42,155 bases of DNA from Desulfuromonas sp. GTDB taxonomy: Bacteria > Desulfobacterota > Desulfuromonadia > Desulfuromonadales > BM515. The translations under genes and the position numbers were made by a program. The stretch is from the NCBI GenBank assembly GCA_002869635.1, contig PKUF01000007.1, positions 49,866-92,020 on the forward strand. The letters run 5' to 3'. Of this stretch, positions 2,171 to 4,562 are shown one piece after another. The notes under the pieces were generated by a model. The model searched no databases and was not told where the DNA came from. It worked only from the letters and a program-made list of their open reading frames with translations. Numbering within the stretch: position 1 is the first letter of the stretch; the number at the start of each line of letters is the position of its first letter.

Positions 2171-3047
2171 GCGAAAAGTTCTCCACGCCCCAAGCGAGGA
2201 TCTCGCGCGCCGACGCCCGACACATCTCCTTTGGAGGCGCCTGAGCGAGAAAGTTCAAGGCCTGCCAGAGCAGATGGGGATCGCTCGATACCGGGACATC
2301 CTGCTGATGCCGCTTGCTCAACTTTTCACCGTCATTACCGAGGACAAGGGGAAGATGAATATAATGCGGCGGTGAATGCCCAAGGCAAGCGTGGAGATGA
2401 ATCTGACGAGGGGTAGACCAGAGCAGGTCGGCGCCACGAACAACGTCGGTGATCCCGGCAGCGTGATCATCAACCACCACTGCCAACTGATAAGCATAGA
2501 CCCCGTCTCCCCGGCGCAGGACAAAATCCCCCACCGCACTCTGCAGCGACTGTTCAATCTGACCGTAGAGGCCGTCGGCAAAACAGATCAAACCAGAGTC
2601 AACCCGTAAGCGCTGTGAACGGGCCTGACGCCCCGGAGGCAGACCGTGCCGACAGGTCCCCGGATAAACCGGGCCTTCTTCTCCGGCGTGGGGGGCACTG
2701 GCGAGGATTTCCCGCCGCGAGCAACCACAATCGAAGAGCCAACCGTCTTGCTTTAACTGGTGCAAGGTCGCTGCATAAGCCTCAAAACGTCGGCTCTGCC
2801 AGACCACCTCACCATCCCACTCGAAACCGAGATGTTCCAAGGTTTTGAGAATTGTCTCGGCGGCCCCCGGAACCACCCGTGGCGTATCGAGATCCTCAAT
2901 CCGTAGACGCCAAAGCCCTCCCCGCTGCCTGGCGTGGCAGTAGCTGCCAAGCGCTGTCACCAAGGACCCAAGGTGCAAAGGTCCACTGGGGCTTGGAGCA
3001 AACCGACCGACTGTTGTTCTTGTTATCGCGCCCATGTCGGGCATCAT
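2136..3047 (-). CDS. gluQ: Glutamyl-Q tRNA(Asp) synthetase (GluQRS)
   Basis: Class I tRNA synthetase-like catalytic core without an anticodon-binding domain (303 aa, family about 290-310). The N-terminal FAPSPSGPLHLGSL contains the HIGH-type motif, and KLSKRH near residue 240 is the KMSKS equivalent. A CxC (FDCGC near residue 107) and a downstream Y/C pair (YPGTC) match the zinc site of GluQRS. The family glutamylates queuosine at the wobble base of tRNA(Asp). Start candidates are ATGs at 3047, 3044 and 3035; 3047 has a GAAGAG at a workable distance. It is divergent from the Rrf2 gene and overlaps the MFS gene downstream. Confidence 0.93.
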   Translation of the reverse strand: MMPDMGAITRTTVGRFAPSPSGPLHLGSLVTALGSYCHARQRGGLWRLRIEDLDTPRVVPGAAETILKTLEHLGFEWDGEVVWQSRRFEAYAATLHQLKQDGWLFDCGCSRREILASAPHAGEEGPVYPGTCRHGLPPGRQARSQRLRVDSGLICFADGLYGQIEQSLQSAVGDFVLRRGDGVYAYQLAVVVDDHAAGITDVVRGADLLWSTPRQIHLHACLGHSPPHYIHLPLVLGNDGEKLSKRHQQDVPVSSDPHLLWQALNFLAQAPPKEMCRASAREILAWGVENFSLARIRPVDQTF

Positions 3048-3125
3048 GCCCCGCTCTTCAGGGGGGTGTCAAGCCTCCCCCCATTCGGGCACCCCACCTC
3101 TTTTGTCGGGTTTAAAACTTTACAA

Positions 3126-3175
3126 TTGACAGCAGACGTTAAGACGCGGTAAGCATAACTTTTAAAGTCAACTTT
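3126..3175 (+). promoter_or_regulatory. Probable promoter and nested palindromic operator of the Rrf2 gene
   Basis: A perfect -35 TTGACA lies at 3126-3131, but no good -10 sits 16-18 bp downstream (TAAGCA is the nearest). Just before the SD is ACTTTTAAAGT (3158-3168) followed by CA and ACTTT (3171-3175): two overlapping palindromes sharing AAAGT. Autoregulation is common in Rrf2 proteins, so this is a natural operator candidate. Confidence 0.45.
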
Positions 3176-3186
3176 GGAGGCTGTCT

Positions 3187-3594
3187 GTGCTCATTACTCG
3201 CGCAACCGAATACGCCATCCGCGCCGTTCTCTATATGGCAACCCAACCCTTCGGTGAAATCGTCCTTAAAAAAGATATTTGTCGCACACAGGGGATCACT
3301 CCCGCCTTTTTGACCAAGATTCTACAACCTCTGATCAAAGGAGGGATCGTCGGATCACAACGGGGGGTCGGCGGGGGGTTCTATCTGATGAAGGATCCCG
3401 CGAGCATCTCACTCTACGACATCCTCGTGGCCGAGGAGGGGCCTCTCTATCTCAACCAGTGCCTCACCGAAGCGGGCGCCTGTGAGCGAGATCTCTTCTG
3501 TCCGGTCCATGGCGCCTGGAAGGACATTCGGGGCGAGATGATGCAGATGCTACAACGTTACACGTTTGCCGATCTGGCCCGAGGCAACAACTGA
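3187..3594 (+). CDS. Rrf2-family transcriptional regulator with three Cys (possible Fe-S sensor)
   Basis: 135 aa, starting at GTG with GGAGG upstream. The N-terminus MLITRATEYAIRAVLYMA is a typical Rrf2 winged-helix start, followed by the recognition region and wing around QRGVGGGFYL (residues 58-67). Three cysteines in the order C-x6-C-x5-C near residues 92-105 resemble the cluster-binding loops of IscR, NsrR and RsrR, so an Fe-S or redox/NO-sensing role is likely but the ligand is not determinable from sequence. No Fe-S assembly genes are next to it. It is divergent from gluQ and convergent with the small-RNA gene and pgeF. Confidence 0.88.
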   Translation: MLITRATEYAIRAVLYMATQPFGEIVLKKDICRTQGITPAFLTKILQPLIKGGIVGSQRGVGGGFYLMKDPASISLYDILVAEEGPLYLNQCLTEAGACERDLFCPVHGAWKDIRGEMMQMLQRYTFADLARGNN

Positions 3595-3603
3595 GGCGAC
3601 GAC

Positions 3604-3681
3604 AAAAAAAACCCTGGAGACCAGGAGGGTAAGTCGTCCAGGGCAAAGCGGGAGACCGCGTCCGGCTTCCCGTGAAGCTCT
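3604..3681 (-). ncRNA. Candidate small regulatory RNA, about 78 nt
   Basis: Not part of a convincing coding frame. The predicted transcript starts about 7 nt after a perfect TATAAT. Hairpin 1 (3649-3672) closes with CGGGA/UCCCG and has an inner CCG-GACG-CGG. Hairpin 2 (3612-3643) pairs CCCUGGA and GAC with GUC and UCCAGGG, one C bulged, and is followed by eight U (3604-3611), making it the terminator. The 11-nt loop of hairpin 2 reads UUACCCUCCUG and contains the anti-Shine-Dalgarno core CCUCCU. Together this is the architecture of a trans-acting RNA that could occlude ribosome binding sites. I do not recognise a named family. It lies between the 3' ends of the Rrf2 gene and pgeF. Confidence 0.6.
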
Positions 3682-3687
3682 GTCTCC

Positions 3688-3715
3688 ATTATAAGACCAC
3701 TTTCCCCAACGTCAA
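3688..3715 (-). promoter_or_regulatory. Strong sigma70-type promoter of the small RNA
   Basis: On the minus strand: TTGACG (3710-3715), a 16-bp spacer, and TATAAT (3688-3693). It faces away from pgeF, and no reading frame follows it before the terminator. Confidence 0.7.
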
Positions 3716-3747
3716 ACGGCCGTCGCGAAAATGCGACGGCCGTTTTT
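3714..3747. terminator. Bidirectional intrinsic terminator after pgeF
   Basis: AAACGGCCGTCGC pairs with GCGACGGCCGTTT around an AAAAT loop, with T-tracts outside both arms. It ends pgeF on the minus strand and insulates the following small-RNA promoter. Confidence 0.8.
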
Positions 3748-3767: not shown

Positions 3768-4562
3768 TTAGTTCAGCAGAAGAAACCCTAGCTGCCGCCC
3801 CGTCTTGCGCCCATCCCGCCGATAAGAGAAGAAGAGCTCACGGTGACAGCAGGTATCCTCCTCTACGGCCTCAATCTTTACGGGATCGAGGCCCGCCGAC
3901 TCAAGCTGAAGTTGACAACTCTTTTTCAAATCGAGCTGCCACTTCCCCAGAGCAACCTCTTGTGTTATCACGTCCCAGTCCCCCACACCGTTTCGAAACG
4001 CATCACGCACCGGCCGATCGACTTCGTAATGATGCGCACCGATCCCCGGACCGATCGCCGCACAGAGCTGTTCCGGACGCCCCCCAAAATGAGCCGTCAG
4101 CGCCTTGATGCTCTTGCCGAGCAACCCGGCGGCGGCGCCACGCCAGCCCACATGCACCACTCCACCAGCCTTCTTTTCAGGTGAGTAGAGAATGACCGGG
4201 TAGCAATCCGCCGTTAATACCCCGGCCATAATCTGTGATTGATTGGTCAGAATCGCATCGCTTTCGACCTGGAGAAAATGGGAAAGATCAGGGTTCTCCT
4301 CATCGATCACCAGAATATTCTCACCGTGGACCTGCTTGACGGTGAGCAGACAATGCGGCGGCAGATCAAAGGAGCGGGCAAGGGTCGAGCGATTCCCCTC
4401 AACATTATGTTTCGCATCATCGGTATTGAAACCGAGGTTAAGAGAGTTATAAGGAGGACGGCTGACCCCCCCATTGCGGGTGGTAAAGCCGGCCGAGACA
4501 CCTGCCTCCTGTGCCCAGTTCGGCTGTAAGTAGCTAATTTTACCCTGGCGAATCAGTTTCAT
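3768..4562 (-). CDS. pgeF: Peptidoglycan editing factor PgeF (YfiH/laccase-domain family)
   Basis: 264 aa, within the usual 240-270 range. Family landmarks are TTRNGGVS near the N-terminus, the HGENI region, the LTADCYPV segment, HVGWRGA and GPGIG. The conserved Cys/His residues form the metal-type site reported for this family. Members remove misincorporated L-Ser from muropeptide precursors and were earlier called polyphenol oxidase or laccase-like. Near the C-terminus, EDTCCHRELFFSYRRDG is the conserved closing motif. Start ATG at 4562; 10 nt separate it from the rluD stop, a tight operon, and pairing with rluD is common in bacteria. Confidence 0.92.
   Translation of the reverse strand: MKLIRQGKISYLQPNWAQEAGVSAGFTTRNGGVSRPPYNSLNLGFNTDDAKHNVEGNRSTLARSFDLPPHCLLTVKQVHGENILVIDEENPDLSHFLQVESDAILTNQSQIMAGVLTADCYPVILYSPEKKAGGVVHVGWRGAAAGLLGKSIKALTAHFGGRPEQLCAAIGPGIGAHHYEVDRPVRDAFRNGVGDWDVITQEVALGKWQLDLKKSCQLQLESAGLDPVKIEAVEEDTCCHRELFFSYRRDGRKTGRQLGFLLLN

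Follow-up and report, generated by a model that had tools for sequence, protein, structure and literature searches.

A short segment between two convergent genes of a Desulfuromonas sp. genome raises the question of whether it encodes a regulatory RNA in its own right, to which family such an RNA would belong and how it would act. The segment lies in the window, by which we mean the whole stretch of 42,155 nucleotides that was analysed. Neighbour comparison places on one side an Rrf2-family regulator (3187 to 3594, plus strand), which is kept as a convergent neighbour in 40 of 101 loci, and on the other a Cu-oxidase_4 gene of the PgeF/YfiH type (3768 to 4562, minus strand), which lies upstream and is not conserved as a neighbour. 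The first-pass annotation had proposed a minus-strand small RNA (sRNA) gene here, with a promoter, about 78 nt folding into two hairpins, a terminal U8 and no open frame of note, located between convergent genes. Promoter scan and folding recovered each of these elements, and no convincing open frame was found in the RNA stretch.

On the minus strand, the promoter scan identifies a -35 element, TTGACG (3710 to 3715), separated by 16 bp from a -10 element, TATAAT (3688 to 3693), together matching 11 of 12 consensus positions. Sites with at least 9 of 12 matches number two in 2.5 kb, compared with 0.6 +/- 0.8 in shuffled sequences. The RNA gene of about 78 nt (3604 to 3681, minus strand) is delimited by fold, BLASTN and covariance models, with a presumed start site 7 nt past the -10 box. 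Read from 3681 to 3604, it has a minimum free energy of -34 kcal/mol (z = -3.1), and 1 of 200 shuffles folds equally well. Fold and covariation define hairpin 1 (3650 to 3671, minus strand), which has a strongly covarying stem and, in many Desulfuromonadales, a GACG loop. Hairpin 2 (3611 to 3644, minus strand), supported by fold, terminator scan and covariation, is the stem-loop of a predicted intrinsic terminator, whose U8 tail is read directly from the sequence (3604 to 3611, minus strand). The loop of hairpin 2 carries CCCUCCU (3623 to 3629, minus strand), a putative anti-Shine-Dalgarno (anti-SD) seed; all seven bases are predicted to be unpaired (probability 0.97-1.0), in line with the exposed CCUCCU described in the first reading, a hexamer that forms the core of the 16S anti-SD. 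The terminator scan of the window stretch found 4 terminators against 2.8 expected, which is not significant, so the significance of the RNA derives from its conservation rather than from that scan.

To assess conservation, a 121-nt query was run by BLASTN on 57 further genomes from the order; at E<=1e-5, 30 of them had a match, with 78-94% identity in the aligned region. Of 136 genomes from the order, 97 had a hit to a covariance model, R1, built from 29 of the sequences so found, as had 158 of the 195 sampled from the class. In the phylum sample the model registered 17 of 297 genomes, of which 10 belong to the class, the others being weak. The family is class-wide in the Geobacter/Desulfuromonas class and is all but absent from the rest of the phylum. 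When hits of a pattern scan were read with their organism names, they came from Geomonas, Geobacter, Geotalea, Citrifermentans, Geomobilimonas and Desulfuromonas, as well as from many metagenome genomes of Desulfuromonadales. Several genomes carry two or three copies, and at locus L125 two copies stand in tandem (3001-3081 and 3144-3225), 62 nt apart. The pattern also appears on a contig titled Candidatus Moranbacteria (LBTS01000002.1, 6168-6191), which is likely a Geobacter-type contig misplaced into the wrong genome bin. No related sequence was found in phages and plasmids.

The manner in which these sequences vary is informative. In alignment A3 (101 members), pairing is kept in 95.0% of cells compared with 75.7% in shuffled alignments, 20 of 21 pairs have changes on both sides, and covariation scores 0.580, a value that drops to 0.227 on shuffling and to no more than 0.111 on sliding the partner. 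These figures are to be read with the fact that A3 was fitted to the structure model and hence favours that structure. A free MAFFT alignment of 29 sequences gives the same kind of result (94.6% versus 89.0% paired; 42 versus 12.9 double-changed cells), mainly in hairpin 1. Among the 101 aligned members, C-C-C-U-C of the loop never varies, and the C and the U that follow are each kept in 100, so that no seed position differs in more than one relative, an invariance that is partly a matter of ascertainment, as search models and BLAST favour loop-bearing sequences. The mean predicted unpaired probability of the loop across members is 0.96. Nearly unchanging unpaired bases beside stems that change pairwise look like a pairing seed. 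Furthermore, promoters with at least 9 of 12 matches precede 78% of the loci, compared with 13% of shuffles and 1.3% of flanks, at a median position 21 nt before hairpin 1, and the TTGAC-type -35 recurs in relatives. The covariance search across Desulfuromonadales, which had been suggested as a check, was thus strongly positive, with stems and loop conserved; together, covariation, conserved promoter and nearly invariant loop support the proposal of an sRNA gene whose terminator loop carries an anti-SD motif.

An invariant loop can equally be a protein site, and many Desulfuromonadales have a GGA-containing apical loop on hairpin 1, which would suit an RNA acting by binding a protein (e.g. CsrA or a ribosomal protein) in place of an antisense seed. 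Yet the other order and several families lack this GGA loop while keeping CCCUCCU, and a motif identical to the 16S anti-SD core is more simply a pairing site; we regard protein binding as quite improbable. CsrA titration was considered and ruled out, as the GGA loop is not conserved across the family.

The local arrangement could also suggest a mere promoter and terminator pair, or an antisense to the 3' UTR of the Rrf2 gene, whose loop would have no function in trans. In the window, the Rrf2 stop codon lies about 10 nt from the U8 of the sRNA. An inverted-repeat terminator, T-rich on the plus side (3714 to 3745, listed without strand; terminator scan), separates the sRNA promoter from the upstream gene and abuts the sRNA -35 box. 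It is the sole plus-strand terminator found between 3595 and 3750, beyond the sRNA promoter, and it probably ends the convergent Rrf2 transcript. The Rrf2 transcript would then probably run antisense through the whole sRNA; the closeness of the stop codon to U8, along with a terminator found only past the sRNA promoter, implies that the tail of the Rrf2 mRNA would be perfectly antisense to it. Loop and fold are, however, kept in the other order and in extra copies, where there is no Rrf2 neighbour, and a role limited to termination or to local antisense seems exceedingly remote. In most relatives the gap between the Rrf2 gene and the sRNA measures 50-157 nt, in some cases with a terminator in between.

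As to identity, the first-pass annotation had not recognised the family, which is in fact already catalogued: the RNA that it described represents the branch of RF01733 ('atoC' in Rfam) found in Desulfuromonadales. At curated cut-offs Rfam returns nothing at this position of the window. By E-value, RF01733 matches the RNA at 38.9 bits (E 1.1e-5) with all model positions 1-93 aligned, and the two hairpins, the CCCUCCU terminator loop and the U tail are found over the full model length. The window RNA, like most of its Desulfuromonadales relatives, stays below the gathering score of 50 bits. When the genomes were searched with RF01733, the same places as with BLASTN were found, with 7 of 58 genomes above the cut-off; a relative of the same order (L005) scores 51.0 bits and members in another order of the class 51-88 bits, and these higher-scoring members are linked to the window RNA through BLASTN and model R1. 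The coincidence of places and the relatives over the cut-off indicate, as judged from these matches, that the window RNA is a divergent Desulfuromonadales branch of RF01733, homologous though below the cut-off.

The family, known since 2010, is filed in Rfam as type Cis-reg, and the sRNA reading departs from this label. Weinberg et al. 2010 listed atoC, in delta-Proteobacteria, as probably RNA and probably cis-regulatory (Table 1, 'y'; PMC2864571). The open-licence papers searched neither describe the 'atoC' RNA as an sRNA nor study its function. As a cis-regulatory leader, the RNA would sit within the 5' UTR of the gene that follows and act there as an attenuator; that gene, a hydrogenase-like sensor or folK, is indeed on the same strand in 31 of 101 loci. 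The authors themselves remark, on the other hand, that motifs commonly upstream of genes are usually assumed to be in 5' UTRs (PMC2864571).

Several features of the loci bear on this label. The Rfam match begins upstream of the -10 element, and the model start, GgUAuAcU, aligns to the -10 box, so that what Rfam calls the RNA includes a promoter box, in contrast to the independent gene that the locus resembles. Across the 101 loci, the next gene is a convergent Rrf2 gene in 40 (the window included), an [FeFe]-hydrogenase-like sensor in 20, folK in 11 and another gene in 30, with no single gene consistently downstream. The RF01733 annotation, though not its model, places the RNA within the 5' UTR of the following gene, a position that was not found for the window RNA. 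A U tract ends the same hairpin in every aligned member. Directly past the sRNA terminator, 10 of the 11 folK loci have TTGACG-17/18-TTTAAT; in the remaining one, GGTTGACGT...TTTTAAT lies at the margin of the stretch that was scanned. The 20 hydrogenase-like loci have a weaker TTGCACA/TATA-type site past the terminator (8-10 of 12 matches), which carries a TGTGC...GCACA inverted repeat. The -10 box within the model, the promoters, the U tracts, the next-gene contexts and the multiple copies argue against the cis label, which, by the layout of these loci, does not appear to fit and is contradicted by the evidence; a cis-regulatory leader is accordingly given little chance.

At the promoter of the hydrogenase-like gene there is a conserved GTGTGCCA...TTGCACA element, sometimes doubled (e.g. 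L081, L142 and L153, past the sRNA terminator), which is a probable operator for some regulator. In the sister order, the main sRNA copy is upstream of the same kind of [FeFe]-hydrogenase-like gene. Extra or divergent copies are located downstream of the sensor gene (L134, 3016-3094; L135, 3000-3078; L398, near 3057); those of L134 and L135 lie at most 10 nt away from it and show no promoter that could be recognised as theirs, as though they were released from its 3' UTR.

We therefore return to the free-standing gene and consider it quite probable that the RNA is a trans-acting sRNA, with its own promoter and terminator, which would block translation initiation through its anti-SD loop. It would be transcribed from its sigma-70 promoter and end at its intrinsic terminator, whose loop would present CCCUCCU single-stranded. 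This motif could pair with G-rich Shine-Dalgarno sequences (SDs; AGGAGGG and extensions) of mRNAs encoded elsewhere, and such pairing would block 30S binding and lower translation. The stems would provide scaffold and stability, their sequence being free to drift while pairing is kept. The predicted binding energy of the loop with AGGAGGGUAA is -16.6 kcal/mol, compared with -16.1 for the 16S tail with its own best SD. The RNA would likely act by SD occlusion, of the kind reported for NfeR1 (PMC10746234), and by repression via G-rich motifs near starts, of the kind reported for sX13 (PMC3771888). Transcription, pairing in trans with mRNAs, repression and help from Hfq are what we infer for this sRNA. 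The genome has an Hfq gene and the U8 tail would fit Hfq binding, but sX13 (PMC3771888) and NfeR1 (PMC10746234) are reported to be Hfq-independent, which leaves a role of Hfq here uncertain.

Targets were sought by scanning 56 genomes for AGGAGGGNAA-N1-7-ATG, with a reversed control. Hits exceeded the control, but equally in genomes without the RNA, and no conserved target emerged; the excess is attributable to the ordinary SD effect. Among about 110 target loci, the only recurrent orthologs were a coding site in a sigma-factor gene, which is not an SD, comM/yifB, fbp and a few pairs. In comM (30 genomes), chosen for follow-up after the hits were seen, a CAGGAGGG-type SD is common in RNA-bearing genomes and poorer in family f4, although it is also found in family f2, most genomes of which lack a clear RNA; comM may be regarded as a weak lead. 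The pattern of fbp was not consistent across genomes, and it was rejected as a target. A loop matching any strong SD needs extra specificity, none of which is yet apparent.

There is about an even chance that 'atoC' is misfiled and is instead a core, class-wide anti-SD riboregulator, a multi-target translational repressor with one terminator-loop seed, duplicated in several genomes and repeatedly linked to Rrf2 or to an [FeFe]-hydrogenase-like sensor gene. The stand-alone reading predicts an RNA of about 80 nt in Geobacter-type species, would give a conserved entry point for studying how metal-reducing bacteria control translation, and would correct an annotation that is automatically copied into genomes as the leader of whatever gene adjoins. 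From its sequence conservation, this appears to be a well-supported class-wide regulatory RNA, with a putative mechanism of a known kind that is clear and testable.

Similar loops occur elsewhere. In the same order, families f4, f7 and f18 have no clear homologs and display CCUCCU-type terminator loops on unrelated stems; in f18, these are CCGGATGTGCCCCTCCCTCCTTGGGCACATCCGG-type terminators with a C-rich, anti-SD-like loop (L405, near 3064; L410, near 3051). Elsewhere in the phylum, a terminator with a TTTCCTCC loop recurs in one other family, and a TTGACA-type promoter precedes the TTTCCTCC(T)-loop terminator in three genomic places (L090, L092 and L095, near 1500-1570; L085), with no Rfam match for L085 and L090. 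Such distant look-alikes may be extremely diverged members or convergent. RepG of Helicobacter pylori has its seed in its terminator loop. RepG likewise targets a G-repeat in an mRNA leader (PMC8295292), but it belongs to another phylum, has another sequence and its main target has a variable G-repeat. sX13 of Xanthomonas (RF02232), whose C-rich loops act on G-rich motifs near start codons (PMC3771888), shares C-rich loops and a weak Rfam match of 22 bits, against a cut-off of 50, and differs in having three stem-loops with 4C/5C loops where two hairpins are found here. The alpha-r14/NfeR1 'cuckoo' RNAs of Alphaproteobacteria carry CCUCCUCCC anti-SD motifs, and NfeR1 blocks the ribosome-binding site of its targets (PMC10746234). 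Theirs are three hairpins each with CCUCCUCCC, a repetition that the window RNA, with a single CCCUCCU in its terminator loop, does not have, and no sequence relation between the two is shown. They nevertheless have in common an ultraconserved unpaired anti-SD motif on sequence-variable stems (PMC10746234), and the window RNA exhibits two features of the trans-acting anti-SD sRNA class: a conserved, unpaired SD-complementary motif and, as far as sequence can tell, its own promoter and intrinsic terminator.
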